DNA from: Desulfobacteraceae bacterium
GTDB taxonomy: Bacteria; Desulfobacterota; Desulfobacteria; Desulfobacterales; Desulfobacteraceae
NCBI GenBank assembly: GCA_003353855.1
Contig: PIVS01000009.1
Location: 1 to 34,327, forward strand
DNA: 34,327 nucleotides
Direction of reading: 5' to 3'
Part shown: positions 4,730-32,675 of the stretch, in pieces
Layout: every line of letters begins with the position of its first letter
Numbering within the stretch: the stretch's first letter is position 1
The notes under the pieces: generated by a model
Seen by the model: only the letters and a program-made list of their open reading frames with translations
Databases searched by the model: none
Told to the model about the DNA's origin: nothing
Translations under genes and position numbers: made by a program

Positions 4730-4748
4730 TATGATTCTCCTTTTTTGC

Positions 4749-4765
4749 CAATCCCAGTGGGATTG
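4749..4765. other. Small hairpin in the 5' leader of the 3170-4729 gene
   Basis: CAATCCC-AGT-GGGATTG, 7-bp perfect stem upstream of the GGAGAATCATAATG start region. Confidence 0.35.
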
Positions 4766-5127
4766 AATAATTACTGAAAACACTGAATGACATTGGGCCA
4801 AACAGTGTACTCCTGACCCCAAAAAGCTATGCGTTAGTTGATGCTGATTAAATGGGACTGGCGCGGATCAGCTGATACATCAGACCACCTCCTTTTAAAT
4901 GAGATAATTTTTAACAAAAATCGCCATTGCCTCTCCACAATGTGAGAACAAAAAAAATCCGAGCAGAACCGGAATAAATTACAAAGGGGACGACGTTAAA
5001 TCAACAATTCAATAGTGACTTTGAAATTAAGAATGCTTGAATTCAAAAACGTCGATGGAGCGTATTAGAACGAACAACAAATGGCTTTATATAATAAATC
5101 CCAATGGGAAAATCAATGGAAAAAACT

Positions 5128-6241: not shown

Positions 6242-6541
6242 TCAACTCCGAGAGTTTTTCCCAATTGCATTTACTCTGGTACCGATTCGCGACGGCAAAA
6301 GAGACACTAGCAATACGGATTCAATTCCTACCTGATGATTCGCAAGAATAAGACAAGGCTGCTCTTTTATAGATGATAAAACGTTCTCATTTTCCAAATA
6401 GATGATAATTACAAAACGCTGATTCAGCCCATAAGCCAAAGAGGCCGGGAACTCTGAATAGCTGTCTCGCCAAAACTCAAAAACTCCAGGCTGGTCTTCT
6501 ACTCTGTCCAATTGAACATAGCTATTTGATAGACAATCCAT
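6242..6541 (-). pseudogene. Truncated PlsC-like acyltransferase
   Basis: KEQPCLILANHQVGIESVLLVSLLPSRIGTRVNAIGK resembles the N-terminal NHxxxxD region (here NHQVGIE); the protein ends after 99 aa. Overlaps the upstream gene end by 20 bp. Confidence 0.45.
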
Positions 6542-10664: not shown

Positions 10665-11615
10665 TTATTTGGGAAAAATATTATCCAATTTTCTCAACAC
10701 GTCCGTAGACAGATCCAGGGAGAGGGCTTTAGCATTTTCCTGAACTTGCAGTGAATTCTTTGCCCCCACCAGGGTATAGATAAAGGAATGCCTCAGCGTC
10801 CAGGCAATAGCAAGTTGCGCACTGGTCACTCCGATTTTTTCAGCAATGGACCCAAGTCGGTTTGCCTTTTGGATATTGCCTTCAAAGTTGCCTGGGGAAA
10901 AGTAATTATTTGTAGGACTGTTCCCGCGCCTTCGCCAATCCTCGGAGCTGAATTCTTTTGATTGATATTTTCCACTTAACAAGCCGTAGGCCAATGTACC
11001 GTAGGATAAAAATTGTGTGTGTTCCTCCTTAAGATAATCGAAGAATTCCCCCTCGTATTCCCTGGAAAGCAGATTGTACTGGCCTTGAACAGCATCCAGG
11101 GGGCTGTCCCCTTCGATTTCCTTGATCCCGGCCAGGCTAAAATTGCTTACCCCGACAAAGCGTATTTTTCCCTGTTCTTTTAAATGATTCAAACTATCCA
11201 TGGTTTCTTGAACAGGCGTTACAGGATCCGGCCAATGAACCTGGTACAGATCGATATAATCGGTTCTCAGCCGGCGCAAGCTCCCTTCTACTTCCTTAAG
11301 CAGGGCTTTCCCCGATGTGTTTCGAATCATGGTCCTGGTACCGGAAGATGTTGTTTTCCAACTCATTCCAAACTTTGTGGCGATAAAAACATGGTCCCGG
11401 TCCCGGGATTTTAAAAATCGGCCGATGAGTTTTTCCGAATGGCCGTTGCCATAAACCGGTGCTGTGTCAATAAGACGAATACCCAGATGATAGGCGGTCT
11501 CCAATGCTTCAAGGGAATTGGAGTCGGACACTCCAGTGGTAAATTGACCGCCGATGGCCCAACCACCGAAGGCGATCCTTTTACAATTATGCCCGCTGAC
11601 CGTTATACCGAACAT
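10665..11615 (-). CDS. Aldo/keto reductase
   Basis: AFGGWAIGGQ, GIRLIDTAPVYGNGHSEKLIG, DYIDLYQVHWPDP, IRFVGVSNF. Start set at MFGITVSGHNCKRIAFGGW (11615); the ORF extends to 11714. Confidence 0.88.
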   Translation of the reverse strand: MFGITVSGHNCKRIAFGGWAIGGQFTTGVSDSNSLEALETAYHLGIRLIDTAPVYGNGHSEKLIGRFLKSRDRDHVFIATKFGMSWKTTSSGTRTMIRNTSGKALLKEVEGSLRRLRTDYIDLYQVHWPDPVTPVQETMDSLNHLKEQGKIRFVGVSNFSLAGIKEIEGDSPLDAVQGQYNLLSREYEGEFFDYLKEEHTQFLSYGTLAYGLLSGKYQSKEFSSEDWRRRGNSPTNNYFSPGNFEGNIQKANRLGSIAEKIGVTSAQLAIAWTLRHSFIYTLVGAKNSLQVQENAKALSLDLSTDVLRKLDNIFPK

Positions 11616-11653
11616 TTCAGCATGCCCCTTCATAAAAGTCCTGGATACACATG

Positions 11654-11830
11654 TCAGCCAATCGACTGAATATGTGGGTGGCTCCTCCTTGATATGGCTG
11701 AGCCGGGGGAACATAGGAAGCCGTCTGTATTGAGACCGGATTCGGACAAGACCTTTATCCAGGTATTAAAATTGATTTTCTCAGAGTCTATTAAGACTCC
11801 GTCACAGTCGAATAACAGGGTTGTCAGCAC
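11654..11830 (-). pseudogene. N-terminal fragment of a HAD-superfamily (beta-phosphoglucomutase-like) phosphatase
   Basis: GTG start at 11830: LTTLLFDCDGVLIDSEKINFNTWIKVLSESGLNTDGF, then unrelated sequence to a TGA. Starts about 7 nt after the GT8 stop. Confidence 0.65.
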
Positions 11831-11837
11831 AGAATTA

Positions 11838-12653
11838 TTATCCTTGATTTACAGGAACAGGATTCGGTAGATTCTCAATGAAGCCCGTGGGGATTTCTCC
11901 TTTCTCGAAGAAGAGAGACCAGAGCTCAATGAGGTCTTTGAACAGCTCTTTTTTTTCATGAAACAGATCCCATGGCTTTTCATACTGAAAATGAATGATC
12001 TTAAGATTATTCCATACCCAGATTTCCGGAAGATTCATATACAGGTATTGCAAGGCATTGTAGATATAAGGAAGACCATGCCAATCCGGAAAATAGGTCT
12101 GAAGAAAGGTTTGGTCGGTCCTCTTGTAAAAGGAATCCGGATGATTCAAATTTTCGAGCATATTCTCATAAATTTTCCTTTCCGGCTTGAACACGAAAAC
12201 ACCGGCATTCATTCGATTGAGATCTTCCACGGCAGCATATAGATTGGGTGCCGCAGAAAAGACCGGAAACTTAAACAGGAGATCGGGATTCTTCAAGACC
12301 AGCGTATCCGTATCCAAAAAAACCATTTTATCGAATTCTTCAAGATTCCATATTTCGATTTTCGAAAAATTCTCCAGGGTATTGTGAAATGAGGGCTTGC
12401 TCCCCAGGAAAGGATTTTTATGAATGCTTTCGGTACAGTGGCGCTTCTGAAAATCCCCCGACAGCCTTGGCGGCGTAAGGAGGATAGTTCTTGCTCCGTG
12501 TCGTTGGATATCGTTGATTGCCGTGACATTATCCGTAAAACCCACCAAAAGTTGATATTCGGATTGAACAAAACGAAGCGATCGATATAGAGCGATTACA
12601 CCGGGCACATATTCATTATTCGTTACCACTGTAATATAAGCTTTCATCTGCAC
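11838..12653 (-). CDS. Glycosyltransferase family 8 (glycogenin-like)
   Basis: AYITVVTNNEYVPGVIALYRSLR...MVFLDTDTLVLKNPDLLF (DxD) ...MNAGVFVFKP...DQTFLQTYF...YIYNALQYLY. Confidence 0.88.
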   Translation of the reverse strand: MQMKAYITVVTNNEYVPGVIALYRSLRFVQSEYQLLVGFTDNVTAINDIQRHGARTILLTPPRLSGDFQKRHCTESIHKNPFLGSKPSFHNTLENFSKIEIWNLEEFDKMVFLDTDTLVLKNPDLLFKFPVFSAAPNLYAAVEDLNRMNAGVFVFKPERKIYENMLENLNHPDSFYKRTDQTFLQTYFPDWHGLPYIYNALQYLYMNLPEIWVWNNLKIIHFQYEKPWDLFHEKKELFKDLIELWSLFFEKGEIPTGFIENLPNPVPVNQG

Positions 12654-12677
12654 TCCTTATTGTAAATCGATGGAAAG

Positions 12678-14297
12678 TCAATCGGTTGCTTTCACCGTCC
12701 CAAAGGCTCTATGATAAATCACGGGTGATCCGGTTTTAATGATCGTTTTGGACGATAGTTTTGCTTTGGCGATAATATTGGCCTTTGAATGAATAACGCA
12801 ATCTCTTCCGATATGGGTAAAATCGTTGATATACTCACCCGCAACTCCACCGGCCAGCATATGACCCGTGATCCTGACATTATCGTTGATAAGTGACCGA
12901 GCTCCGATGCTTACAAGATCCCAGTCGTTAATAACCTGTGTGTTGATGATGGCATCTTTCCCGATGCTGGCACCCAGAAGCCTGAAAATCTGATTCAAAA
13001 CCATAGTCCCTTTCCATTCTGCAAAGATATAGGACTGGCACATCCAGGTGTAGGGAATAAAAAATATATAATCTTTTTGTATGCCGGGATCCATTAGGGA
13101 GTTTTTACGAGGCCTGAATTTGAATTTTACAAGCCATTTTACAAGGATTAATTGAAATAAATAGGTGAACTTTGCAGTCCAGAAACCGATCACAAACGAC
13201 AATAGAAAGGGCATTTCCATACTGGCTCTCGTGAGTTGAACGGCGCTTAAGGTAAGAAAAAGAGTAAGGGAAAAGCACAGAACACGAAGCAGATGGAACA
13301 AAAAAAGCTTTAATTTGCTATTATGAAAAGCCGACTTCTTTTGAACTTCACGTTTGACAGCAGACCTGCCGTTGTAAAGGGAACCTTCCCGGATACTATA
13401 CTGCGGAGGGACGTATACAAATGGATAGGTGCCTGCGTCTTTCTCAATTTTAACGCCCCGGTCGATAAACGCCTCCAGGGAGATGAAACTGCCATGACCC
13501 ATGACAATGGGTTGATGCTGGATGTTTCCCTGTCTATCTTGAAAGCTTGTGTTTAATTGACATGTGCTGAAAAAGACCCCATCGCCGATGGTAACCCAAT
13601 CGACATGATGGATCAGATTGGTACCCGGTGTAATGGCACAATTTTTTCCCATTTTCAGTCCGCAGCATTTTAACCAAAAATAATAAATTTCACTGGCCCC
13701 GAATTGGATTAGCAGGTTGTCGGAGATGGAGAGAAGCTTGCTCACAAGATTTTTTTTAATATCGTAAAAATGATTCTTCGCGTATTTAACCTGCTTGGGT
13801 GTGAGCAGCCTTTTCAACACGGTGGTCAGCAAGGGAATGGTTATGAGGCTGATTGCGATACTCAAGAAGATCCTGCCGGTGTTCTCCACGGCAAAGGGCA
13901 TTAAGTATAGAATGAGATCACTTAAAAAAACAGCCAAATAAATAGCAAAAAGGAGAATATAGGGAACCAGAACAAACGCTGTTAAAAGGGATGAAATGAC
14001 AGACAGGAAGCGGCGAAAGGAGGAGATAGCCTCGAAAGGAGGATTGGAATCCTGCACGGCTTGGGTATGTAAAGGATGTAAAACACAATCGCCGGGTAAT
14101 CTTTGCCCCTGGGTCAGCAGGGAGTTGTTTCTCAAGGTTGAATTCGATTCGATTGTAATGGGTTGAATGACGAGGCCTTCATGGGTCAATTGTGATGGCT
14201 GGATCAAAGCGTTTTCCTCAATATGGACATTGTCATGAATCGTAATGCAGTCAAAATCATCCAGGGAAAGACTTTGTATGTCCACATTCTTACCCAT
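12678..14297 (-). CDS. Pls-like/NRPS terminal-domain protein (TM helices plus left-handed beta-helix repeats), continuation of the upstream ORF
   Basis: Hexapeptide-like repeats (GKNCAITPGTNLIHHVDWVTIGDGVFF; GASIGKDAIINTQVINDWDLVSIGARSLI) alternating with TM segments. Overlaps the upstream ORF end by 8 bp. Confidence 0.75.
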   Translation of the reverse strand: MGKNVDIQSLSLDDFDCITIHDNVHIEENALIQPSQLTHEGLVIQPITIESNSTLRNNSLLTQGQRLPGDCVLHPLHTQAVQDSNPPFEAISSFRRFLSVISSLLTAFVLVPYILLFAIYLAVFLSDLILYLMPFAVENTGRIFLSIAISLITIPLLTTVLKRLLTPKQVKYAKNHFYDIKKNLVSKLLSISDNLLIQFGASEIYYFWLKCCGLKMGKNCAITPGTNLIHHVDWVTIGDGVFFSTCQLNTSFQDRQGNIQHQPIVMGHGSFISLEAFIDRGVKIEKDAGTYPFVYVPPQYSIREGSLYNGRSAVKREVQKKSAFHNSKLKLFLFHLLRVLCFSLTLFLTLSAVQLTRASMEMPFLLSFVIGFWTAKFTYLFQLILVKWLVKFKFRPRKNSLMDPGIQKDYIFFIPYTWMCQSYIFAEWKGTMVLNQIFRLLGASIGKDAIINTQVINDWDLVSIGARSLINDNVRITGHMLAGGVAGEYINDFTHIGRDCVIHSKANIIAKAKLSSKTIIKTGSPVIYHRAFGTVKATD

Positions 14298-16245
14298 CTT
14301 GACCCCTAAACACCAGCCCTTTCAAGGTTGTACTTGTTTTCGTTTTTTTCAGAAGAATAAAGAAGGGCCAACAATTGATGTGAAGAAAGTCGAATAGGCG
14401 TGACACACTCCACCATCGATAATAATAGAGCCCGAAAATAGGATAGACCCCGGGCCGGAAGCGACCAATAATAATCCATTTGAGCAGGATTGCCAAAGAA
14501 AGCAACAAAAGAAACGAACCCATTGCGTAAAAGGGCATAAGAAACAGGTTGAGCCCATGGCCTAGCCGAATCGAAATATGCTGGAACAATTGCAGAACAG
14601 GAAACAGCGATCCTGCAATCAACAAGGGCAGAAATAAAATGAAACCGATTTGGTAGAAGCTGCCCAGAATTTGGGAAAAATATGTTGATCTAAAATAGGG
14701 TGGGCCGGTGCCTATCCTATCTTCCCTGTCACTTTCCTGGACGGGATCAGGCTTGTCGCTTAAGTTACGAGCCTTGGCCCGCAGTTGATCAAAGAGCTCG
14801 GCCATATTTTTTATCGTTGGATCAGAGAGAAAGGAATGAAAATGTTCGGGCTCATATTCCGGCAGATGAAAATGTTCCGACAGGGTTGCCACGATATCTG
14901 CCAGCTCCAGGGAATCACCCCCCAAGGCAGAGAAGTGATCCTCGCCTTGGTGTACTTCAATATTTAATATCTCTTTCCAGCATTTGTATACAACACGCTC
15001 GGTTTCGGTTGCAGGGGAGAAGGGTCTTTTTTGATCCGGCAAAAACAATTGGGGATCCAATTTTTCGCATCGTTTCCTGATCTCTCCCCGACGTATCTTG
15101 GAGAGCCCTGTCATGGGGAAGTCCTCCAGAAAACATACCTTCTGGATTCTCATATACATGGGAATATCGGGAAATCCATTCAAGATACTCTTTTCAATCT
15201 GCTCCTTCACTTTTTTTGTATTTTTCTTCTCCTGCCCTATGCGAGCAAGGTCCAGGGCGGCACCACCGCAACTTATTTTTTCTAATTTACCGCCGAATTT
15301 TTTTTGAACGCCGGAAAAGAGATAACGGTTTATATTGATTCGTGTGGCCCTGTGAATTTGATGGCCAAGGGAGGCCAGTCCCAGGATTGCCCAACGTTTC
15401 AGGAAGAAAAGATCATTTATTTTGGCATTGATGCCACTGTGGAAGAGATATAAGATGCGGGGCACGAGGCAAACAACCGTGGGTTTGGATTGTTGAAGCG
15501 TTTCTGTAATGCTTGCAGCATCGATTTTTTCAACAAAGGTGTTGGTCATGCCGGCAATTAAGGGTACAAGGATGGAAGAAATAAAAGGATAGATGTGGTG
15601 TATGGGCAGGACGGTGACGATGGAGTCCTTTTGGTTGACCTGAAAGGTTTTTTGTATCTGAATGAGATGCTCCAGCATGGATGACTCGGAATGCATGATG
15701 GCTTTATATCCGGCAGTGGTCCCGGAACTAAAGAGAATTGCACCCAGGGAAGTGTCAGGATCCTGGGTTTCGGGAAAACCGGGGTCAACAGCCTGGGAAA
15801 AACCATCGATCACCTTGAAACCATCGTTCAGGTTAAAAGCGGGTCTTTGCAAAAATTCTGAACAGGGCAGTTTCTTTATGTTCTGTTCGGACAGGAAGGC
15901 GGCACGCACATCACTTTTTGCAATCAAATGCATCAGGTCTGCCGGCATAAGTCCTGGATCCAATAAAACAGGGGTGCAGCGGTTTATCAGAAGGCCCAGA
16001 TAAGCGGCAACAGCCTCGGGGCGGCCCTCGGAAAGAATGGCCACGCGATCACCCTGCCGAAGGTTTTTTTGTCCCAGGGTATCTGCCAAGGCAAGGGATG
16101 TTTTTATCAGACCCCTGAACGTATACTCAATTTGAGTACTATTTTCTTCCATGTGAAGACAGATTTTATCCGGATACCTTCTACTGGTCGATTCGATATA
16201 AGAAAAGAGAGGGGACTGCTGTGAATTTATATTTTTCCTGATCAT
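14290..16245 (-). CDS. AMP-binding (shortened) - peptidyl carrier - membrane protein, N-terminal half of a Pls-like synthetase
   Basis: ILFSSGTTAGYKAIMH (A3-like), ISCGGAALD, C-terminal DFPMTGLSKIRRGEIRKR, carrier FSALGGDSLELADIV, then TM helices and YYYRWWSVSRLFDF. Starts 1 nt after the upstream stop. Confidence 0.75.
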   Translation of the reverse strand: MIRKNINSQQSPLFSYIESTSRRYPDKICLHMEENSTQIEYTFRGLIKTSLALADTLGQKNLRQGDRVAILSEGRPEAVAAYLGLLINRCTPVLLDPGLMPADLMHLIAKSDVRAAFLSEQNIKKLPCSEFLQRPAFNLNDGFKVIDGFSQAVDPGFPETQDPDTSLGAILFSSGTTAGYKAIMHSESSMLEHLIQIQKTFQVNQKDSIVTVLPIHHIYPFISSILVPLIAGMTNTFVEKIDAASITETLQQSKPTVVCLVPRILYLFHSGINAKINDLFFLKRWAILGLASLGHQIHRATRININRYLFSGVQKKFGGKLEKISCGGAALDLARIGQEKKNTKKVKEQIEKSILNGFPDIPMYMRIQKVCFLEDFPMTGLSKIRRGEIRKRCEKLDPQLFLPDQKRPFSPATETERVVYKCWKEILNIEVHQGEDHFSALGGDSLELADIVATLSEHFHLPEYEPEHFHSFLSDPTIKNMAELFDQLRAKARNLSDKPDPVQESDREDRIGTGPPYFRSTYFSQILGSFYQIGFILFLPLLIAGSLFPVLQLFQHISIRLGHGLNLFLMPFYAMGSFLLLLSLAILLKWIIIGRFRPGVYPIFGLYYYRWWSVSRLFDFLHINCWPFFILLKKTKTSTTLKGLVFRGQDG

Positions 16246-16246
16246 T

Positions 16247-17521
16247 TTATTTGTTACACCTATTTTTATGAGTCCTTTTTTGTGGAAAAAACCTTGTTTT
16301 GGAAGGGATCTCCTGAACGGGCGATTTTCTCCATGGGGGACTGTTCAGGATCTTCGATACATCACATTGATGCTTGTATTTTCTGGCAATGGAAACCTCT
16401 TCTTCACAAAGAACGCCCTGTAAACAAATCGGATGTAATCCCAGTTCTTGCAGTGAATCGGCGATGACATTAAGGTCGTTGCAAACCGGTTCCCGGCGGG
16501 GATTTTCTAAATATTCAATTTTTGCCCCGGTCAGGTTGGAAACAAACCGGGCAAGTTCTTCCACAGAATGGGTTTCCGTTGCCTGGTTAAATATTCGAAC
16601 ACGGTCGCCATCGGGAGGATTTTCGATGGCAAGGCGGATGCATTCAATAGTATTTTCAATGTGAATGAAAGCTCTGGTCTGGCCTCCTGTACCATAAATT
16701 GTCAAAGGATATCCAAGGGCGGATTGCATGAGAAAGCGATTCAAAACCGTTCCGTACATTCCATCGTAATCAAAACGATTTATCAAGATAGGATCAAGAT
16801 GGGTTTCCTTTGTGTTGGTGCCCCAGACAATGCCTTGATGAAGGTCCGTAATGCGGATCTGATCATTCTTGTTATAAAAATAGAACATAACTTCATCAAG
16901 ACACTTGGTTGTATGATAGACACTGCCAGGATACATGGGATGCAAAATGCTCCGAGTGCTGCTCCGTTTGCCTTCCTGAACAACATCAACATCAATATAC
17001 CCCTCTGAAATACTGAATCCTTCGCTGTTATAGCCGTATACTCCCATGGTGCCCAGATGAACCAGGTGGATATCAAGATCTTTTTCAACGATGGCACAAA
17101 GAATATTGTGGGTTGCGTTTACGTTGTTGTTCACCGTGTATCGTTTTTGTTTAGAGCCCATCATTGAGTAGGGCGCAGCCCTTTGTTCGGCAAAATGTAC
17201 TATTGTGTCAGGCTGGATCCGTTCAATAAGTTCGGCCAGCCGGGTATATTCCTGGGCGATATCGATGTTAAAGTGTTGGATGGTATCCCCTGAGATGGAT
17301 TTCCATTTTGCAAGACGCTCTTCGATGGTCGCGACGGGTGTCAGGGAACAGGTCCCCAATTCGTTATCAATATTTCGCCTGGACAAATTGTCAATAATTG
17401 TAACGTCCATCTTGTTTCTTGATAAATGAAGCGAAGTCGGCCAGCCGCAAAAGCCGTCTCCACCCATGACAATGATTTTTTTTTTTTGACATGTTATCCT
17501 CCACCTTTCATAAATATTCAA
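16247..17521 (-). CDS. sqdB: UDP-sulfoquinovose synthase-like (SQD1/SqdB) extended SDR
   Basis: IIVMGGDGFCGWPTSLHLS, VHFAEQRAAPYSMM, HLGTMGVYG, YHTTKCLDE, TDLHQGIVWGTNTKET, RFDYDGMYGTVLNRFLMQSALGYPLTIYGTGGQTRAFIHI, matching remembered SQD1 motifs closely. Confidence 0.85.
   Translation of the reverse strand: MNIYERWRITCQKKKIIVMGGDGFCGWPTSLHLSRNKMDVTIIDNLSRRNIDNELGTCSLTPVATIEERLAKWKSISGDTIQHFNIDIAQEYTRLAELIERIQPDTIVHFAEQRAAPYSMMGSKQKRYTVNNNVNATHNILCAIVEKDLDIHLVHLGTMGVYGYNSEGFSISEGYIDVDVVQEGKRSSTRSILHPMYPGSVYHTTKCLDEVMFYFYNKNDQIRITDLHQGIVWGTNTKETHLDPILINRFDYDGMYGTVLNRFLMQSALGYPLTIYGTGGQTRAFIHIENTIECIRLAIENPPDGDRVRIFNQATETHSVEELARFVSNLTGAKIEYLENPRREPVCNDLNVIADSLQELGLHPICLQGVLCEEEVSIARKYKHQCDVSKILNSPPWRKSPVQEIPSKTRFFPQKRTHKNRCNK
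17476..17487 (-). repeat. Poly(A) 12-mer (coding strand) at the 5' end of the SQD1-like gene
   Basis: T12 on the + strand. Just upstream on the minus strand is GGTGGAGGATAAC-ATG-TC followed by A12. Confidence 0.9.
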
Positions 17522-17542
17522 GAAAAAATTTATCCGGGCAAA

Positions 17543-20500
17543 TTAATCTTCTTTGCGCAATAAAAACTCTAGTTTCGGCTGTAATATTGGCCGTGTGAGG
17601 CGATACCATAACTTGCTTGATAAAAACATCGCAAGCAGGAAACTAAAACCAAACATTACTATGTTGTTTAAAATGCCATGAACCTCCTGAAAATAACCCC
17701 CAATTAAAAATAAAAAAACAAAAAGAGGATGCCACAAATAAGCATACAAAGATCTCGTACCCATTTCGCTGAATATTGAGTAACTTGAAGGTATCATCCA
17801 GATGAAGGCAAGGGCCTGGACAAACATAATAGCCATGGCAATACCCCGCTCCAGCACGTTATGCAATAGGGTGTTGGATAGAGGGTAGGGATATGACATG
17901 AGAACAGGCAGACGGCTGTATGGATATAAAATCCATAGGAGCATAAAAGATGCTGCTAATATAATCACACTATACCGCAATTTAACTTTTTTTATTAACA
18001 GGTGCTTGTAGCTAAAGCCAAACAGAAAAAAAGGATAGTAGTAGAAAAATTTATCTAAGGCTAAAAAAATATTAACATGTGGAATCGCTCCCGAAAAAAG
18101 GCATACAATAATGCTAATCCACAGGGCGTAGCGAACAGGGTAGAGCAGCGGCAATGTCAGTTTCCATAATATCAGGCACAACAAAAACCAACTGATAGTA
18201 GAGGGCCGGAAAAAGATTTGATCTATATTGGTTGGGAATAAGGATTGCGCTATAATATTATAAACCAGATAAGGTACTAATATACCTGAAAATAAATGTT
18301 TGTAATCATTTGCATTCAGTCTTTCTTTAGAGTAATAACCAACCATCATTGAAAAAGCTGCCATGGAGAAAAAAGAAAAGGTATTATTAAACATTGTCAA
18401 AAACTGAATATTTGTTTGATGATAAAAGGAACCCTCCCACAGAGTAAACCCTGAAAGGAAGTGGGTTGCAACAATTAAAAAAATCAGCCAGAATCTAGCT
18501 GTATTAAGCTTACAAGTTACCGATTCTACGGCACTAATTGGTGTTGATTTTTTTTTGACGGGTTTAATTTTTTTACCAGGACTATCTTTTATTTTCAGAT
18601 TACTTAATTCAACCTGCTGATCCAATAGATATTGAGCCAAACGGTTTATCGTAGGATAAGCTGTAATAGTCTGGCTGCTGATCTTAACCGACTTGGGTGC
18701 ATATTGTTGAACCTTGTTGATCAGCTCCACTTGAATAAGTGAATCCAAGCCCATTTCTTCAAAAGAACGCTGATAATCTTCTTTGGTTCGCATATCATAA
18801 CCTGTCACCTGATGTATAATCACTTTGAGGTTTTTGCGCACCTGATTGATAGCGTCGGATTCTTTGAGCTTTGATATAACTTTATTTTTTGTGAACATTT
18901 CTTTGGAAGATCCGGATTTATCTTTAAAAGCTTTTAACCAGACAGCCTGTTTGGCTACTTTTATTTTTTCTTTATCCAGCCTTGCAGCTTGTATCACAGC
19001 TTGTGATTGCTGCAAAGCTTGAACGAAAGCTTCACTGCCTGTTTTCTCATCAAAGGATAAAAAACCCCTGCGGGCATGCTCATCTGCTAAATCAGCCGCC
19101 ATACCGCCAACTGCCCAGGGACCCCAGTTAATACTGGTTGCGGCAAGATTTTTAGCCCGCCTGTAATGTGATAGTTGATCCAAATAGCTATTAGCTGCTG
19201 CATAATTACCTTGGCCGGCGCTGCCTAAGCTGCCGGCAACGGATGAGAATAAAACAAAATAATCAAGTTTGATTTTTAAAGCCTGACTTATTTCATGCAG
19301 GTGTTTTCCACCAAGCAATTTAGGGGCAAACACCCTGGCAAAACGCTCTGGTGTCTGGTTGCTGATAACGCCGTCATCTAAAACACCGGCTAGATGAAAA
19401 ATGCCTTTTAGAGTTGGTTGGTATTTTTCAATGAGCTGCTGTACTTGTGCTTTATCACTTACATCAGCCGATTCTATGCCTATGGTGAGATCTGCAAAAA
19501 CTGATTTTATTTCATCTAATTTTGTTTGTTGCAGGTCATTGGGTGCATGGCGGGAAGTTAGAATACAGGTCCTGGCACCCGCCTTTGCCAATGTTTTTAA
19601 CACAATGATACCCAGTGCACCCAAACCGCCTGTGATCAGATAGCTGGCCCGGTCATTAATCTGCACCCCAAGGGGTAATGTCTGTGTGATAACAATTTTA
19701 CCCATATGCCTGGCTTGTTGCATAAAAGAAAAAGCGTCCCTGGCCTCTTCAATGGGATAATGTGTCACAGGTAACGGCTGAATGACCTGCTCAGTTAACA
19801 TGGCATTGATCAACTGGATAAGCTCGCCAATATACTCTGGTTTATCCTGGGTCAGTTGGTCCATGGCAATGATGTGATAATCTACATCTTTTCCGGCTTC
19901 TTGCATCTCAGCCCGGGTGTAAATATTGCGTTTAGCTATTTCCAGGAAAGTGCCGGACGGTTTTAGTGCTTGTAAACTTGCCTCAATAAAGCCTTCACTG
20001 GTTAATGAATTTAAAACAATATCAACGCCTTGCTGTTTTGTGTCGGCTAAAATCTGCTTGCTGAACCCGGTCTTTCTTGAGTCATAGATATATTCAACGC
20101 CCAAAGCTTTAAGTTGAGATTGCTTATGCAGGCTGGCTGTCGCATAGATAACAGCGCCGCAATGCTGTGCCAATTGTATCGCTGCCATACCAACGCCGCC
20201 GGCACCAGCATGAATTAATACCTTGCTGTCTTTTTTCATGCCTGCAAGCTTGATCAGGCTGTGATAAGCCGTCAAATAAACCGTGGAGATGCCTGCGGCC
20301 TGAGCTAAACTAATGGATTCTGGCACTTTAGCTAAAAGGCAGGATTTTGTAAGGGCGTATTGTCTAAAACCGCCCGGGCACAAACCATAGACGCTATCTC
20401 CTATCACTATATTTCTTACCTTTCTGCCGACACGGGATACAATGCCCGCCACCTCACCCCCCAGGGGACCCGGGTCACCTGGATATAACCCCATCGCATT

Positions 20501-23500
20501 TAATACATCACGAAAATTTAATCCAGTGGCTTTTACTGCAAGCTCAATTTCATCAGCCTCCAGTGCATCAGATAGTTCAGCCGGCTGCAGCTTTAAACCT
20601 GACAAGGTGTTATTGGCTGATTTTGCTAATTGCCAGGGCATGTTATCTGATCGGTGTAGCCGGCCTGCCTGGGTAGGCGTTAGTAAGCGATGCACAAACA
20701 GACGGCCTTTATGGCAGGCAACAAAGGGCTCAGATACTTCCAGGGCTTTGGGTAATGTTGATAAATCATCAAGATCAATTAAACGTAAATTAAGTTCGGG
20801 ATTTTCTATCAACGCGGTTTTAACAAGCCCGAACAAACAACCTGATTCAATGTTTTGTTGGGTATAGAGGCCTTGTGTGAGTAAAATCAACATTGAAGGT
20901 GGTGTCTGCAAATAACCAAGCACCTGGCCGGCTAAATTTAATGCGGGCCGATTGGCGCAAACATATATAACAGCATCACAATTATCGGTAAGCTGTAAAA
21001 CCTCAGCCAAAACAGTTCGTTCCTTGTCACAAGCTCCTGCAACCTGCCAGGTTTTTGGTAAAGACCCATGGATTTTATCAATGGAATCATGTTCCGTGTC
21101 GGGCGTCACTGCCTGCCAGAAAGGTATCAGTGGTTCAGCGATTTTTGGGTGCAAAAGATTTGCAAGCTGAGCCATTGTTGCTCGACGTGATTGTAAACCA
21201 TTAAGAGTAAGCAATAAAGTGCCTGCTGAATCATAAAAATAAAGATCAGCATTTGCTTTTTCCCCATCCGAATGGTTTTGGAGAACACGCACCCACACCT
21301 CTTCGGGCAGGTCGTGATAGTAAATACATTGCTCAATGCCAATTGGCAGCATTGGATCTTTATTTTCATTTTTTAAGCCAATGACAGAAGCTTGCAGCCC
21401 ACCGTCAATTAACAGGGGATGGGCAGCATGGCCTTCAAGTGACAGCTTTGTATTGAGCAATGCCCACACTTCAGTCTTGCCAATGTGATAAGCGGATATG
21501 GTTTGAAAAGCTTTGCCAAACTGCAAACCCTGCCTGGCAAAACGTGCATAGAGCTCTTTTACACCGGTATCGTTTTGCAGTTGCTGCTGTAGGGCAGCCA
21601 TGTCTATTATACTGTCTTCAGGCCCATGGGCCTTTGCCACTAACAACCACCTGGCTTGCAATTGCCAGCCGGTCTCTTGATTATCAACAATGGCCTGACT
21701 GTAACAGCTCACGCTATACCCGCCTTCTTCCATGGGTTTAACCATGGTTTGCAGGTCGGTGTCATCTTCCAGGGATAAGCGCAGTGGACGCAGAATCGAT
21801 AAATCACGCACACAAAAAGATTGATTTTCCATTAATTGTCTTGCCACTTCAATTGCAATTTCAAGATAAGCGGCTCCGGGGAATAATAAATAATCCAAGA
21901 CTTTATGATCATTTAAATACCCCCGTTCATTGAAATCTATATTTTGTATGTAACAATGTTCATCACCTGCCAGGGGAAGGGTTACACCCAGTAAAGGATG
22001 CAGTGGTTGCCCAAAGCCTGTAACAGCAGATTTTCTCTTTTCTTCTGCCTGCACCCAATAGCGCTGTCGCTGAAAAGGATAAGTGGGTAAGTTTGTTTTT
22101 TGTAAATCAGCTTGATAGGGTGCATAAAAGCCGGCCCAGTCAATGGGCACGCCGTGAAGATAAAGGAGGCTCACACTTTGAAGTAAAGTTTTCCAGGGAT
22201 TGTGTTTTGGGCGTAAGGATCCCAGCCATAATGGTTCCAGGTTATGCTCGGACTGCTCTGCGCCTTTTTGATCACCCCTTTGCCAACATAGAGCACCCAA
22301 GCCCGTTAAGACCGTATTGGGGCCCATTTCAATAAACACCCTGCAGCCTTGTTCCTGTAAAGTCTGCATGCTTCCCAGAAAATTTACCGGCTGCCGTACA
22401 TGCCTCACCCAATAGTCCGCATTCATCTCTTGGGGCTCTATTTTTTTGCCGGTAACATTGGAAATAAGCGGCAATTGTGCCTCATGGTAAACAATGGTCT
22501 CTGCAATTTTTTGAAACTCATCCAGCATGGGTTCCATCAAGTGTGAATGGAAGGCATGTGATACCCTAAGCCCTGTGCTGGAAATTTTTTGCTGTTCCAA
22601 CCTCACTTTAAGGCGGTCAATAGCCGGGAATTCGCCCGAGATCACGGTTTGCTGCGGGTGGTTAATGCCTGCGATACTGATCTCATGTCCGGCATCTGCA
22701 GCCTGGATGGCAGCTTGTACATAGGCAAGATCAGTTTGCACGGCCAGCATTGCGCCGCCTGCAGGTAAGGCTTGCATCAGACCTCCGCGTGCAGCAATTA
22801 ATTTGAGCCCATCCATAAGGGTCAGAATACCCGCAACAGTGGCTGCAACGTATTCGCCAACGCTGTGTCCTAGAACATAATCGGGTTTAACACCCCAACT
22901 GAGCCAAAGCTGCGCCAGGGAATACTCCAATGCAAACAATGCAGGCTGGGTGTAAGCGGTTTGATTGAGCAACCCTTTGTTCTTATCTAAAAATAACAAC
23001 TCCAATAAGGGTTTATCCAAATAGGCGGCAAGCTTGTCTGCACACCTGTCTAATGCTGTTTTAAAGACAGGTTGCGTATCATAGAGTTCTTTACCCATCC
23101 CGGTGTATTGTGCACCTTGTCCGGTAAATAAAAACGCTGACAAAAGTTTAGCCCGGCCTTGTTCAATGTGCTGAACTTTAAACACCGAATCAGCTATCTG
23201 GGCTTGTAAATCAGCATGGTCCTTAACAATCAAGGTGGTTCGGAAATTGTGATCTCCTCGACCCACACCGGCGGTATAGGCTATATCTTTTAAACTCGGT
23301 TTGCCGTTATCCGTATAGTAAGAGGCGTATTGCTGCCTTAATTGTATAACTGCAGCTTCAGTTTTAGCGGAAATAGGAACAAGGTAAAAAGGCAGATCCA
23401 TTTGTGTTAAGGGCTGGCCAGGCTGCCGGGATTTTTTTTCCCCAATGACCGGAGCACTTTCCAAAATCGCACAGGCATTGGTTCCGCCAATTCCCAGTGA

Positions 23501-24760
23501 GTTAACAAGGACTCTTTTTGGTCGAGGGTCCTTTGCCAATGGCATCGACTCTTTTATAATACGAAAGGGACTTGTCTTAAGCTTAAGCCTGGGGTTGGGT
23601 GTTTCAAAGTTAGCACTGGGCGGCATCAAGCCTTTATCTAGGATAAGAACGCCTTTAATGAGACCTATAACACCTGATGCCGCGTCTAAATGTCCCACAT
23701 TACTTTTAACCGAGCCCAGGATACAATAATTTTTTTTGTCAGAAAATCGGTTAAAAACATGGGCCAGGGCCGACACTTCTACCGGGTCACCCATGCTGGT
23801 GCCTGTTCCATGCGCTTCAACGTAATTGATGGTTTCCGGTGAGATATCGGCAACATCAATGACCTCCTGCATACAAGCCACCTGACCTGAAAAACTGGAG
23901 GCGGTGTAACTGAGTTTGTCGGAACCATCATTGTTGCTGGCAGTCGCAAGAATGGTGGCATGGACATAATCACCGTCTTTAACAGCCTTGGACAAAGGTT
24001 TTAATAAGACGATGCCGGCACCGCTGCCGAATATCGTACCATCTGCTTTTTCGTCAAAAGTACGCACGTGGCCATCTGACGAATAAATACCTCCTTCCTG
24101 CCGTAAATAACCTTGTTTCTGTGGTACTTTGATATTGATGCCGCCGGTTAAGGCCATATCACATTCACCCGCCAATAAAGCCTGACAGGCTAAATGCACC
24201 GCGACTAAAGAAGTGGAACAGGCTGTTTGTACCGAGATGCTTGGGCCGGTAAGGTTTAATTTATAGGATAACCTGGTTGCCAGATAGTCTTTATCATTGG
24301 CTATATGGGCGAATGAACCACTTTTTTGCTCAAACTCCGGGTAAGCTTTTAAGTAGGTCAATAAATAATTACTGACAACATCACCCGAGCCTGCATATAC
24401 ACCGATGGATTGTGCGTTCTTGCCGGCATAGCCTGCCTGCTCCAATGCTTCCCAGGCAATTTCCAAAAAAATTCTTTGCTGGGGATCAAGGGCCGTTGCT
24501 TCCCGGGGCGAAAAATTGAAAAATGAGGCGTCAAAATCAGTGATGTTCTCCAGGACAGGCGAGGCTTTAACATAATCAGGATCGGTCAAAAGTTCGCTGG
24601 ATACACCTGCCGACAAGAGTTCTTCTTCAGTAAAAGAATCGATGCAATCTTTTTTTTGGCAGAGATTATCCCAAAACCTTTCGATGGTATCGGCGTGGGG
24701 AAATCTTCCTGCCAGACCGATCACGGCAATTCTATGATCATCGACATCTAGTTTATTCAT
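17543..24760 (-). CDS. Highly reducing type I PKS: KS-AT-DH-(psiKR)-ER-KR-ACP-[multi-TM acyltransferase-3-like]
   Basis: KS TACSTSL, EAHGTGT, SNVGHLDAASG; AT GHSVGEY and HAFHSH (malonyl type); DH YLNDHKVLDYLLFPGAAYLE; ER LIHAGAGGVGMAAIQLAQ; KR SYLITGGLGALG and LFSSVAGSLGSAGQGNYAAAN; ACP EEMGLDSLIQVEL; C-terminus NTARFWLIFLIVATHFLSGF...YAYLWHPLFVFLFL with about ten hydrophobic helices. No thioesterase seen. Confidence 0.93.
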   Translation of the reverse strand: MNKLDVDDHRIAVIGLAGRFPHADTIERFWDNLCQKKDCIDSFTEEELLSAGVSSELLTDPDYVKASPVLENITDFDASFFNFSPREATALDPQQRIFLEIAWEALEQAGYAGKNAQSIGVYAGSGDVVSNYLLTYLKAYPEFEQKSGSFAHIANDKDYLATRLSYKLNLTGPSISVQTACSTSLVAVHLACQALLAGECDMALTGGINIKVPQKQGYLRQEGGIYSSDGHVRTFDEKADGTIFGSGAGIVLLKPLSKAVKDGDYVHATILATASNNDGSDKLSYTASSFSGQVACMQEVIDVADISPETINYVEAHGTGTSMGDPVEVSALAHVFNRFSDKKNYCILGSVKSNVGHLDAASGVIGLIKGVLILDKGLMPPSANFETPNPRLKLKTSPFRIIKESMPLAKDPRPKRVLVNSLGIGGTNACAILESAPVIGEKKSRQPGQPLTQMDLPFYLVPISAKTEAAVIQLRQQYASYYTDNGKPSLKDIAYTAGVGRGDHNFRTTLIVKDHADLQAQIADSVFKVQHIEQGRAKLLSAFLFTGQGAQYTGMGKELYDTQPVFKTALDRCADKLAAYLDKPLLELLFLDKNKGLLNQTAYTQPALFALEYSLAQLWLSWGVKPDYVLGHSVGEYVAATVAGILTLMDGLKLIAARGGLMQALPAGGAMLAVQTDLAYVQAAIQAADAGHEISIAGINHPQQTVISGEFPAIDRLKVRLEQQKISSTGLRVSHAFHSHLMEPMLDEFQKIAETIVYHEAQLPLISNVTGKKIEPQEMNADYWVRHVRQPVNFLGSMQTLQEQGCRVFIEMGPNTVLTGLGALCWQRGDQKGAEQSEHNLEPLWLGSLRPKHNPWKTLLQSVSLLYLHGVPIDWAGFYAPYQADLQKTNLPTYPFQRQRYWVQAEEKRKSAVTGFGQPLHPLLGVTLPLAGDEHCYIQNIDFNERGYLNDHKVLDYLLFPGAAYLEIAIEVARQLMENQSFCVRDLSILRPLRLSLEDDTDLQTMVKPMEEGGYSVSCYSQAIVDNQETGWQLQARWLLVAKAHGPEDSIIDMAALQQQLQNDTGVKELYARFARQGLQFGKAFQTISAYHIGKTEVWALLNTKLSLEGHAAHPLLIDGGLQASVIGLKNENKDPMLPIGIEQCIYYHDLPEEVWVRVLQNHSDGEKANADLYFYDSAGTLLLTLNGLQSRRATMAQLANLLHPKIAEPLIPFWQAVTPDTEHDSIDKIHGSLPKTWQVAGACDKERTVLAEVLQLTDNCDAVIYVCANRPALNLAGQVLGYLQTPPSMLILLTQGLYTQQNIESGCLFGLVKTALIENPELNLRLIDLDDLSTLPKALEVSEPFVACHKGRLFVHRLLTPTQAGRLHRSDNMPWQLAKSANNTLSGLKLQPAELSDALEADEIELAVKATGLNFRDVLNAMGLYPGDPGPLGGEVAGIVSRVGRKVRNIVIGDSVYGLCPGGFRQYALTKSCLLAKVPESISLAQAAGISTVYLTAYHSLIKLAGMKKDSKVLIHAGAGGVGMAAIQLAQHCGAVIYATASLHKQSQLKALGVEYIYDSRKTGFSKQILADTKQQGVDIVLNSLTSEGFIEASLQALKPSGTFLEIAKRNIYTRAEMQEAGKDVDYHIIAMDQLTQDKPEYIGELIQLINAMLTEQVIQPLPVTHYPIEEARDAFSFMQQARHMGKIVITQTLPLGVQINDRASYLITGGLGALGIIVLKTLAKAGARTCILTSRHAPNDLQQTKLDEIKSVFADLTIGIESADVSDKAQVQQLIEKYQPTLKGIFHLAGVLDDGVISNQTPERFARVFAPKLLGGKHLHEISQALKIKLDYFVLFSSVAGSLGSAGQGNYAAANSYLDQLSHYRRAKNLAATSINWGPWAVGGMAADLADEHARRGFLSFDEKTGSEAFVQALQQSQAVIQAARLDKEKIKVAKQAVWLKAFKDKSGSSKEMFTKNKVISKLKESDAINQVRKNLKVIIHQVTGYDMRTKEDYQRSFEEMGLDSLIQVELINKVQQYAPKSVKISSQTITAYPTINRLAQYLLDQQVELSNLKIKDSPGKKIKPVKKKSTPISAVESVTCKLNTARFWLIFLIVATHFLSGFTLWEGSFYHQTNIQFLTMFNNTFSFFSMAAFSMMVGYYSKERLNANDYKHLFSGILVPYLVYNIIAQSLFPTNIDQIFFRPSTISWFLLCLILWKLTLPLLYPVRYALWISIIVCLFSGAIPHVNIFLALDKFFYYYPFFLFGFSYKHLLIKKVKLRYSVIILAASFMLLWILYPYSRLPVLMSYPYPLSNTLLHNVLERGIAMAIMFVQALAFIWMIPSSYSIFSEMGTRSLYAYLWHPLFVFLFLIGGYFQEVHGILNNIVMFGFSFLLAMFLSSKLWYRLTRPILQPKLEFLLRKED

Positions 24761-25104
24761 GTTAATTTACCCCGCCTATGAACGGCTCTTTTTGATACCC
24801 GGGCAGGCTTGGTGTCATCAAATACTCCTTCCAATGGTGATCTATTATTGATCACATTGTCATAGACCCGACACACCTGACCAACCGTTTTTATATCAGT
24901 GATCGGCGCATCACCATTGGTAAAGGGCTCGCATTGAAACTCCATTTCCAGCTTTGTTGTCAGGACAGCAACTTCCAATGAAGTAAACCCCAGATCATCA
25001 ACAATTTTATCTTGCTCTTTGATTGCGGCAATTGCTGTGCCATAGTCCCGTGCAACTTCTTCAATAATTTTACATAACCTTTGAAATGTTTCTTGCCTGC
25101 TCAT
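24757..25104 (-). CDS. Discrete acyl carrier protein
   Basis: KIVDDLGFTSLEVAVLTTKLEMEF, with the DLGFTS Ser site. Overlaps the PKS start by 4 nt (ATGA). Confidence 0.8.
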   Translation of the reverse strand: MSRQETFQRLCKIIEEVARDYGTAIAAIKEQDKIVDDLGFTSLEVAVLTTKLEMEFQCEPFTNGDAPITDIKTVGQVCRVYDNVINNRSPLEGVFDDTKPARVSKRAVHRRGKLT

Positions 25105-25115
25105 ATACCGACTCC

Positions 25116-25850
25116 TTAACAGTTAATACCACCGTCTATGGTGATCACCTGGCCTGTAATAAACCGCGCATCATCAGATAATAAAAATGCCACCATGCCA
25201 ATAATATCCTTGGTTTTCCCTAAACGATTGAGGGGTGTCCTCCGTATGATCTGCCCCCGTTTTTCATCATTTAAGGTGCTGGACATTTTAGTATCCAGAT
25301 AAGAGGGTGCAATTGCATTGACACGGATATCAGCGCCACCCAATTCCCTTGCCAGGGATCGCGTCATTCCGTCCAGTGCAGATTTGGTTGCGCTGTAAAC
25401 GCTTAGGCCCGAATAACCTTTTTGCCCGATAATCGAAGAAATATTAAGAATGACACCCGTACCTTTGCTCATCATATACCGCAAAGTTTCCCGGGTTAAA
25501 TAAATGCTGCCTGCTAAATTGACGGCCAGCATTTTTTCAATTTGATCATAGGGTTGCAGGACCAATAGACCGTCATAGGCAACAGCCGCATTATTAATCA
25601 AAGCATCAATGCGGTTAAATTTTTTATAAACCGATTGAATAAATTTTTTAACCCCATGGCGATCGCTGATATCCAGCGGTTGCCAGAAAAATTTTTTTGG
25701 GTGGTTTATTTGCATTTGTTTAGTGAAATCATTTTCATGTCTACTGCAGGTTGCTATTTTGAAATTATTCTCCATCAAGGAGACCACAATACTTTTACCC
25801 AGCCCCTGGCTTCCTCCGCTGATCACAATGACTTTATTCATTTTTTCCAA
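25116..25850 (-). CDS. SDR, FabG-like 3-oxoacyl-ACP reductase
   Basis: GGSQGLGKSI, NNAAVAYDG, ISSIIGQKGYSGLSVYSATKSAL, GQVITIDGG. Confidence 0.88.
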   Translation of the reverse strand: MEKMNKVIVISGGSQGLGKSIVVSLMENNFKIATCSRHENDFTKQMQINHPKKFFWQPLDISDRHGVKKFIQSVYKKFNRIDALINNAAVAYDGLLVLQPYDQIEKMLAVNLAGSIYLTRETLRYMMSKGTGVILNISSIIGQKGYSGLSVYSATKSALDGMTRSLARELGGADIRVNAIAPSYLDTKMSSTLNDEKRGQIIRRTPLNRLGKTKDIIGMVAFLLSDDARFITGQVITIDGGINC

Positions 25851-27169
25851 ATAATCCTTTTCTTTTTATTGACAAAGGAGGTTGCTATCTCATCAACAAA
25901 TTCTATGATATGAGGCCCTGCATATTCCGGTAATGTTTTTTTTGCCAGGGCTAGTATATTCCTTTTAATTTTGCCTGTATCAACCCCCTGCCTGGTTTTA
26001 ACCTCTACCTTTACCAGGTTGCCGAGCATTGGATTTTTACGGCCCGTGGCTATCACATCTTCTACACCATCAACAGAAAGTACCAGGTTCTCAATGGTTT
26101 GGGGATTAACTTTGTATCCGCCAACATTGATTATTTCATCTATCCTTCCGCAAAACAGGATACGGTCACCATGCTGTTTAACAAGATCATTGGTGGCAAT
26201 CCAATCGGCTTGTGCAGGTTTCCCCAAATAGTTCTCCATGGCGGCAGTGGAACGTTTAATAAACAATTGTTCATCTTCGATTTTGAAATGGTTGCCGTCA
26301 ATAAGCTTCGCACTAAAACCCGCTTGTTCATCATTTACCTGAATGGCTGCACCGGCTTCACTGGAGGCATAAATATGGGTGATTCCTGTTTTCGGCATAT
26401 AGCGCTTAATACGTTCTAAAATAGTTTGATCAGCCATTTCTCCACCCAGGGTGATTCGATGCAAAGATAATTTTTGCAAGGCTTCCGGGGTGTGAGCCAG
26501 TAAAAAACTGCGCATCAACGTCGGGGTGCCGTTCATGTAGTCTGGTTTAAATGTCTGCAATGTTTGATAGATCACAGAAGGAGTAAGGGATTCAGCTATA
26601 ATTAAAACACCGCCATTTAAAACAGCTTGCAGCAATACCTGAATGCCGGCAAAGCTGGCAAGGGGATAGGTGCAAAACCAGCGTTGATGATGAAACCTGT
26701 CTGCACATTTAATTTTTGCCGTTAACGACTCCAGTGTATGACAAACGCATTTGGGTTTGCCGGTGGTTCCGGAGGTTAATAAACCCAAGCCTGATTTATC
26801 ATAGGAGCCGGAGGCTTGTGATGGTCCGTCAATGGGGATTATCGTGACAGAACCATTAATGAAGCTGATCAAAACATCGCAGGCATAATCCTTGAGCATC
26901 CCCATTGCCTGTTCTTCATTATAGTAGTTGGGCACTACAATAAGGAATAAGTCGGATATTAATGCTGCCAGTATAAGCGCAACATGGTCGCTATTTTGTT
27001 GTACTACGCAGGCTGTCATTTTATGCTTAAGGGGCTTAAGGGCGGCAGTGTAGAGGTCAATTTTTGCAATCAACTCATTTGCCCGGCATCGCCGATCTAT
27101 TGAGCCCACACTCAACGCATGATCCGTGGATAAGCTGTCCAACAATTTTATTAGCTGATTTTTATTCAT
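25838..27169 (-). CDS. Acyl-CoA synthetase / acyl-AMP ligase
   Basis: LLTSGTTGKPKCVCH, YASSEAGAAIQ, DRILFCGRIDEIINVGGYKVNPQTIE, catalytic-Lys-type C-terminus. ATG preceded by AAGGAGGTTT. Confidence 0.88.
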   Translation of the reverse strand: MNKNQLIKLLDSLSTDHALSVGSIDRRCRANELIAKIDLYTAALKPLKHKMTACVVQQNSDHVALILAALISDLFLIVVPNYYNEEQAMGMLKDYACDVLISFINGSVTIIPIDGPSQASGSYDKSGLGLLTSGTTGKPKCVCHTLESLTAKIKCADRFHHQRWFCTYPLASFAGIQVLLQAVLNGGVLIIAESLTPSVIYQTLQTFKPDYMNGTPTLMRSFLLAHTPEALQKLSLHRITLGGEMADQTILERIKRYMPKTGITHIYASSEAGAAIQVNDEQAGFSAKLIDGNHFKIEDEQLFIKRSTAAMENYLGKPAQADWIATNDLVKQHGDRILFCGRIDEIINVGGYKVNPQTIENLVLSVDGVEDVIATGRKNPMLGNLVKVEVKTRQGVDTGKIKRNILALAKKTLPEYAGPHIIEFVDEIATSFVNKKKRIIWKK

Positions 27170-27281: not shown

Positions 27282-27668
27282 TCAACGCCGAGTCCACCGC
27301 CGCAGTTTTCCGGTACTCAACGCTGAGTTGAAAAAGTCGCCTGTCTCGCCATGATAAAGCGAATCGTGGAGCCGGGAGGTATAGCGCCCGCTCCTGAACC
27401 GATCAAGAAGCTTCCGGCGAAAATCGCCCCCTGCCCCGTCGTTGGCATCGTGTTCCTGGATCAACATGCTGTCGTTATAGTAACGCCTGCCACCATCACA
27501 GCCTTTGGCGGCAAGATAGATTTTGCCGCTCTGCACGTCTCCGGGAAGGGCTGCCTCTTTGTAATAGTCAGCCATGTGATCCAAGGTGATCTTCTTCCCG
27601 TTAACGACGGGAAGAAGCGAGGCATCTGCCTGGCTGCTGATCCGGCTTGCGGTGAAACTGAATAACAA
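27282..27668 (-). CDS. Hypothetical ORF, possibly a remnant
   Basis: 128-aa ORF with no recognised motif; overlapping frames are also open, so weak support. Confidence 0.2.
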   Translation of the reverse strand: MLFSFTASRISSQADASLLPVVNGKKITLDHMADYYKEAALPGDVQSGKIYLAAKGCDGGRRYYNDSMLIQEHDANDGAGGDFRRKLLDRFRSGRYTSRLHDSLYHGETGDFFNSALSTGKLRRWTRR

Positions 27669-27892: not shown

Positions 27893-30172
<2,280 letters not shown>

Positions 30173-32200: not shown

Positions 32201-32653
32201 TTAAATAAACTTAGGCAAATCCATTTTCATGCCCTTGCCCGGCAGGGTCATGAGCGAAGAGGTGCCGTGGGCAATGAGATTGCCGGCCTCATCCAGAACC
32301 TTTGCCTCGGCATAGGAAATTGTTTTCCCCGGCCGGATGCAATGGCCCTCTGCGGTAAGACGGCCCTCCACAACGGAGTTCAAATAGTTGAGTTTGAGAT
32401 CAACATTCACGAGTCCCGCATCTTCAGACACACGTAAAAACCCGGCCCAGAAGGTGGCCGTGTCAATGAGTGTGGCAATAACCCCGCCGTGGACAATGCC
32501 GTAGGGCTGGAGATGACAGCGGTGGAGATCCATGGCAATCTCAGCATTATCATAGCTGATTTCCGCCAGGGACATGTGCATGTGATGGGGATAGGGGCTG
32601 GTGTTGACCACCTGTTTCAAGGCCCTGATAAATTCAGGATTAGGCGTTTTCAT
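32201..32653 (-). CDS. PaaI-type hotdog thioesterase
   Basis: YGIVHGGVIATLIDTATFWAGF (HGG motif), LNYLNSVVEGRLTAEGHCIRPGKTISYAEAKV. Start at MKTPNPEF, with AAGGA upstream. Confidence 0.85.
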   Translation of the reverse strand: MKTPNPEFIRALKQVVNTSPYPHHMHMSLAEISYDNAEIAMDLHRCHLQPYGIVHGGVIATLIDTATFWAGFLRVSEDAGLVNVDLKLNYLNSVVEGRLTAEGHCIRPGKTISYAEAKVLDEAGNLIAHGTSSLMTLPGKGMKMDLPKFI

Positions 32654-32675
32654 GGGGGTTCCTTGTCTATTCATT

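Follow-up and report, generated by a model that had tools for sequence, protein, structure and literature searches.

This analysis concerns a gene cluster on a 34,327-nucleotide (nt) stretch of contig PIVS01000009.1 (GenBank assembly GCA_003353855.1) from a Desulfobacteraceae bacterium, which as a whole is referred to below as the window. On its minus strand, between positions 10665 and 27169, nine open reading frames (ORFs) run head to tail from a ligase gene, the first (beginning at 27169), to an aldo-keto reductase gene, the last (ending at 10665). The domains of all nine are supported by Pfam/NCBIfam profile matches. Together they place a polyketide synthase (PKS) with an AT3-type membrane tail in the same gene run as homologues of SqdB and SqdD.

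The nine ORFs were found where the original prediction had located them, and measurement of the junctions reproduced the overlaps and the 1-nt gap that it had reported. Seven of the eight junctions overlap or are at most 24 nt wide. The ligase gene, which has a strong ribosome-binding site (AAGGAGG), overlaps the gene for a short-chain dehydrogenase/reductase (SDR) by 13 nt if the latter starts at TTG, or by 4 nt if it starts at the ATG at 25841. A gap of 11 nt leads to the gene of an acyl carrier protein (ACP), which overlaps the PKS gene by 4 nt, and 21 nt separate the PKS gene from that of an SQD1-like protein. After 1 nt comes the first of two ORFs for a Pls-type protein (Pls-A), which overlaps the second (Pls-B) by 8 nt; the GT8 glycosyltransferase gene begins 24 nt further on. 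The sole wide junction, of 123 nt, lies ahead of the aldo-keto reductase gene (10665..11714, Pfam), whose link to the pathway is uncertain. The spacing of the nine genes is operon-like, and they likely form a single operon.

The acyl-chain genes and the AT3 tail

The ligase (25838..27169) is a complete AMP-dependent enzyme of the MenE/aryl-acyl type, recognised by its Pfam AMP-binding and C-terminal domains and by a full set of motifs (A3 TSGTTGKPK, A5 YASSE, A8 GRIDEIINVGG). Its closest solved structures are aryl-CoA ligases, and its role would be starter activation. It is followed by a FabG-like ketoreductase of the SDR type (25116..25850; Pfam/NCBIfam) and by the free-standing ACP (24757..25104), which carries a GFTSLE motif and scores 20.9 bits with Pfam, at the cut-off. 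The three plausibly constitute a starter module. Two genomes of the phylum also have a ligase-SDR pair, which in one of the two is accompanied by KAS III genes. At loci L163 (16938-17672) and L164 (3-1367), a pair like that of the window shares an operon-like row with a hexapeptide gene, a CMAS-like methyltransferase gene and two genes of the KAS III type.

The PKS (17543..24760) is 2405 residues long, is open throughout and keeps every domain motif intact. Its iterative-type order of ketosynthase (KS), acyltransferase (AT), dehydratase (DH), enoyl reductase (ER), ketoreductase (KR) and ACP domains was established from Pfam matches and motifs: TACSTS, EAHGTGT and NVGH in the KS, the malonyl-type GHSVGE and HAFH in the AT, HxxxxxxxxP and DGGLQ in the DH, an LDD-type KR and GLDSL in the ACP. 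From this single fully reducing set and its malonyl specificity, a saturated chain without branches is to be expected, and we infer that the synthase acts iteratively.

The PKS contains no thioesterase domain, and an AT3 domain starts about 40 residues past the ACP. This membrane tail (17546..18583) scores 25.2 bits against PF01757 within the whole PKS, below the Pfam cut-off of 31 bits; taken alone it gives a full-length match of 31.6 bits. It has hydrophobic segments and, in its first helix, the R-X10-H motif (RFWLIFLIVATH), which is absolutely conserved in AT3 proteins, in which RXXR is highly conserved (PMC9833829). Since the termini of AT3 proteins are described as cytoplasmic (PMC9833829), a cytoplasmic carrier domain ahead of helix 1 is topologically reasonable. 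The tail resembles the family in its motif and in the extent of its Pfam match, whereas it differs in its partner, because the reviewed fusions join AT3 to SGNH or racemase domains (PMC9833829) and this one sits behind a PKS carrier domain. A same-family genome encodes a 990-residue protein that combines AT3, PGA_cap and GDSL lipase domains (locus L088, 237-3209, minus strand).

The PKS-AT3 fusion is the most unusual part of the cluster. No second one was found with the AT3 tail in 340 other genomes of the same class or in a plasmid collection. A fungal precedent reportedly exists for PKS release by a fused acyltransferase, there of the carnitine acyltransferase type (Hang 2017, cited in PMC6158276).

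A predicted sulfoquinovosyl head group and a probably split Pls-type protein

The SQD1-like protein (16247..17521) was identified by its NCBIfam match, by alignment and by its motifs. Its alignment with Arabidopsis SQD1 runs over the full length, with the NAD-binding GGDGxxG and the active-site motifs TMGxYG and YHxxK retained. Its score of 331.8 bits on NF041015 lies below the curated cut-off of 575 bits, and a Sinorhizobium meliloti protein from what we take, judging by its neighbours, to be the characterised sqdB locus (a literature search with its locus tag found no paper) scores 332.1 bits. The cut-off therefore appears to omit this bacterial clade. The nearest bacterial SqdB-type proteins are 54-60% identical to the window protein, and it is well supported as a protein of the SqdB type, a predicted UDP-sulfoquinovose synthase.

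The GT8 glycosyltransferase (11838..12653; Pfam, DTD motif) is an SqdD homologue. With the glycosyltransferase encoded immediately after SqdB in Sinorhizobium and Marinovum it shares 42-44% identity. A search of 72,556 plasmid records returned matches to it in only ten, and all seven with at least 41% identity adjoin an SqdB gene. In the window it is not directly adjacent to sqdB; it lies on the same strand and in the same gene run, about 3.6 kb away, with the Pls ORFs in between. In Rhodobacter, sulfoquinovosyl diacylglycerol (SQDG) is made by the sqdBDC operon (PMC11346425), and SqdD is named as a glycosyltransferase (PMC10315480). Compared with this pathway in Rhodobacter sphaeroides and Sinorhizobium meliloti, the window shares the SqdB-type synthase and the SqdD-type GT8, but it has no SqdC match, its sqdB and sqdD are parted, and PKS-AT3, ligase and ACP are added. 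The two proteins are thus no odd pair: judged by homology, they represent the known sqdB/sqdD module of sulfoquinovosyl lipids. A head-group function is supported for them, and we hold with good confidence that such a module lies within the PKS cluster.

Sulfite would be needed for this head group. The idea that the host supplies it as a sulfate reducer was dropped, as no dsrA above the cut-off was found in the genome. On a Pelagovum plasmid (locus L005, 14998-16904), a phosphoadenylyl-sulfate reductase gene directly follows an SqdB-type gene and is a possible local source of sulfite there.

The two ORFs between sqdB and sqdD had been described as Pls-like carrier genes. Their profile matches are of the Pls type, but they look like one protein in two frames and not like two separate parts. 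Pls-type enzymes polymerise amino acids; behind their adenylation and carrier domains they have membrane helices in three pairs, with hexapeptide domains in between (PMC10522769). Pls-A (14290..16245) reads as the front of such a protein, with an adenylation domain, a carrier domain with an intact GGDSL motif and the first helix pair, and Pls-B (12678..14297) is its rear in another frame, with the other two pairs and the hexapeptide (left-handed beta-helix) domains. On TIGR02353, the profile of a terminal domain with six helices and three hexapeptide domains, the two score 48.0 and 119.6 bits separately and 170.2 bits when joined, over positions 8-682 of 695, which lies below the cut-off of 423.1 bits. 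Upstream of the Pls-B ATG and in the Pls-B frame, an LGxK ahead of MGKNV continues the motif LGxxxGKx, which recurs later in the same protein. Given the joined score and this motif, a frame change within a single Pls-type protein is the best reading of the 8-nt overlap. An AGGGG that resembles a ribosome-binding site precedes the Pls-B ATG, which leaves room for coupled translation of the two ORFs.

The window protein has the carrier domain, helix pairs and hexapeptide domains of the Pls/PosA family, but differs in being split in two frames, in its score under the family cut-off and in its incomplete adenylation domain. The protein may be loaded in trans, may be decaying or may reflect an assembly error.

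Distribution and genomic setting

The other genomes searched numbered 57 with SqdB, 291 with the rear and 344 with the front Pls ORF, 290 with the PKS, 281 with the GT8 and 286 with the ligase. SqdB gave two matches of 58-60% identity among the 57 relatives, neither with the remaining cluster genes, and none of 13 SqdB loci from a wider genome collection has them either. No full-length match was found for Pls-B, and Pls-A returned adenylation-domain matches only. In 11 neighbourhoods around the nearest homologues of the PKS, some of which lie on short contigs, SqdB, SqdD and the rear Pls are all absent. The original prediction had named PKS loci lacking SQD1 and Pls-like genes in all relatives as evidence against it, and such loci are literally what these neighbourhoods present; but their PKSs are 35-47% identical to that of the window and are not orthologues, which speaks for the rarity of the combination, not for its falsity. 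Conservation is thus unusable as evidence of function here.

At the right end of the contig, positions 32201-34317 share about 78% DNA identity and synteny with a same-genus genome. Everything to the left of 32201, including the isocitrate dehydrogenase gene, the cluster, a HAD-glycosyltransferase fusion gene and an IS66 transposase gene, is missing from the corresponding stretches of two genomes of the genus, which places the cluster in accessory DNA. The metagenome-assembled genome has a contamination of 6.7% and the isocitrate dehydrogenase is closest to another family; contamination as the origin of the cluster is nevertheless ruled out by the syntenic right end, unless the contig is chimeric.

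Several neighbours within the window were recorded, all on the minus strand. The isocitrate dehydrogenase (27893-30115) is monomeric, is absent from five same-genus genomes and is 72% identical to that of a different family of the order. Between it and the cluster, an ORF without a family match (27282-27668) resembles a decayed coding sequence. At 6522-8327, an HAD-IB phosphatase is joined to a UgtP/MGDG-synthase-like glycosyltransferase; this glycolipid-type enzyme lies near the cluster and is a possible associate of it, and a search of 55 other relatives found nothing that matches it over its full length. A 550-residue ORF (3170-4822) matches nothing in Pfam, NCBIfam or PHROGs, and the IS66 family transposase (480-1565) lies at the distal end of the accessory DNA.

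A possible polyketide-acylated sulfonoglycolipid

In the pathway that we propose, SqdB would convert UDP-glucose and sulfite to UDP-sulfoquinovose, and the SqdD homologue would transfer sulfoquinovose onto an acceptor, either a lipid or a small polyol. The ligase would activate a starter acid and load it on the ACP, after which the PKS, assisted by the SDR, would extend it with malonyl units and reduce it fully to a saturated chain. In place of a thioesterase, the AT3 domain that adjoins the PKS carrier domain in the same protein would act at the membrane, moving the chain straight from the carrier onto a hydroxyl group of the sulfoquinovosyl acceptor. As for the split Pls-type protein, it may no longer work, or it may be loaded in trans and contribute one more acyl or aminoacyl group.

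A sulfo-glycolipid pathway, as originally predicted, is still the best reading of the cluster, and the identification of the GT8 as an SqdD homologue strengthens it; the identities, motifs and order of the genes are seen in the sequence, and the starter, the acceptor, the AT3 release and the product are what we infer. That the genes form one pathway to a sulfoquinovosyl glycolipid with a PKS-derived acyl chain, in which AT3 provides both release and acylation, is our tentative preference, held at just short of an even chance. The bolder proposal, that a PKS uses its own transmembrane AT3 to hand its chain directly to a sulfoquinovosyl acceptor and so defines a new class of polyketide-acylated sulfonoglycolipid, is possible but doubtful.

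A functional parallel is offered by mycobacterial sulfolipid-1 (FadD23-Pks2-PapA-Chp1), in which an AMP ligase feeds a PKS and a membrane-associated acyltransferase attaches the chains to a sugar that carries sulfur (PMC9989471). The succession of ligase, fully reducing PKS and membrane acylation of a sulfur sugar is the one proposed for the window, whereas the window would use a sulfonated glucose instead of sulfated trehalose, a malonyl instead of a methyl-branched extender, and an AT3 fused to the PKS instead of separate Pap/Chp proteins. On NCBIfam, Pks2 is the second-best match of the window PKS, at 954 bits against a cut-off of 2400 bits, and a Pfam scan found no sulfotransferase (Stf0) or PapA-type domain in the cluster. 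The cluster is therefore not a member of the sulfolipid-1 system, and may be regarded as analogous to it. The claim that no described pathway has this combination held in part: PKS-AT3 with sqdBD and Pls was not found elsewhere in the searches, and the open-access literature yielded no pathway pairing a PKS with AT3 or with sulfoquinovose, but SqdB and SqdD form a known sulfoquinovosyl-lipid module.

Several observations weigh against the proposed pathway. The AT3 match is weak (31.6 against 31 bits), and the only RXXR of the tail, at residue 2387, lies near the C-terminus instead of on the cytoplasmic face of helix 3, which lowers confidence in the assignment but leaves it possible. A single-sequence fold prediction of the tail (mean pLDDT 51) was too poor to use, and the reviewed AT3 enzymes use acyl-CoA donors, ACP donors not being shown there. 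No SqdC homologue was found in the window, the part of the genome searched for it. The Pls gene looks damaged, and the adenylation domain of Pls-A, which reaches only position 300 of the 384 in its profile and is missing motifs A5, A7 and A8, probably cannot adenylate. As the full gene set occurs in no other sampled genome, co-function is argued from gene spacing alone.

The most serious rival holds that the island combines two independent lipid functions, with sqdB and sqdD making ordinary SQDG on a diacylglycerol acceptor and the ligase-SDR-ACP-PKS-AT3 set producing an unrelated acyl group and attaching it to some surface sugar. The two sqd genes do provide specific head-group steps of a known pathway, the ligase-SDR pair occurs elsewhere without SqdB, and no SqdB is found near the PKS relatives. 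But sqdB, lying between them, is 21 nt from the PKS gene and 1 nt from the Pls ORFs, and sqdD follows downstream on the same strand, which favours joint expression; we consider this separation unlikely.

It is improbable that the product is a PKS/NRPS-like (nonribosomal peptide synthetase-like) secondary metabolite decorated with sulfoquinovose, to whose polyketide the Pls-type protein adds amino-acid units. Such a role would suit a family that polymerises amino acids (PMC10522769), the intact GGDSL and the full complement of helix pairs and hexapeptide domains across Pls-A and Pls-B, but the adenylation domain lacks A5-A8, the cluster holds no other amino-acid-activating gene, and AT3 and SqdD suggest lipid acylation and glycosylation.

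The SqdB relatives bear on a third alternative, in which the sulfonated sugar made by SqdB and the GT8 goes into a surface polysaccharide and the PKS chain is either a lipid anchor or unrelated. Relatives about 60% identical also occur in polysaccharide-like loci, next to genes for epimerases, LegC-type aminotransferases and cytidylyltransferases, a further point against a lipid product, and the window protein sits on a long, unresolved branch of the SqdB tree, which does not decide between lipid and polysaccharide. The lipid reading thus depends on SqdD. We give this alternative little credence: no SqdD-type GT8 lies close to the SqdB genes of those loci, and neither a polysaccharide polymerase nor a flippase is among the genes annotated in the window. 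That the cluster is a horizontally acquired island in decay, without a pathway that works, would fit the frame-split Pls with its truncated adenylation domain, the nearby IS66 transposase and decayed ORF and the absence of the cluster from relatives, but is very improbable given the open PKS with all motifs intact and the equally intact SqdB, SqdD, ligase and SDR.

If the proposed pathway is correct, it would be a second, independent route to a sulfur-bearing polyketide glycolipid, with a sugar that is sulfonated rather than sulfated. It would reveal a new mode of PKS release, in which a carrier-bound chain is handed to a membrane acyltransferase within the same protein, and would bear on the ability of AT3 enzymes to use ACP-bound donors. 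It would also extend the sulfoquinovosyl lipids past the diacylglycerol types.

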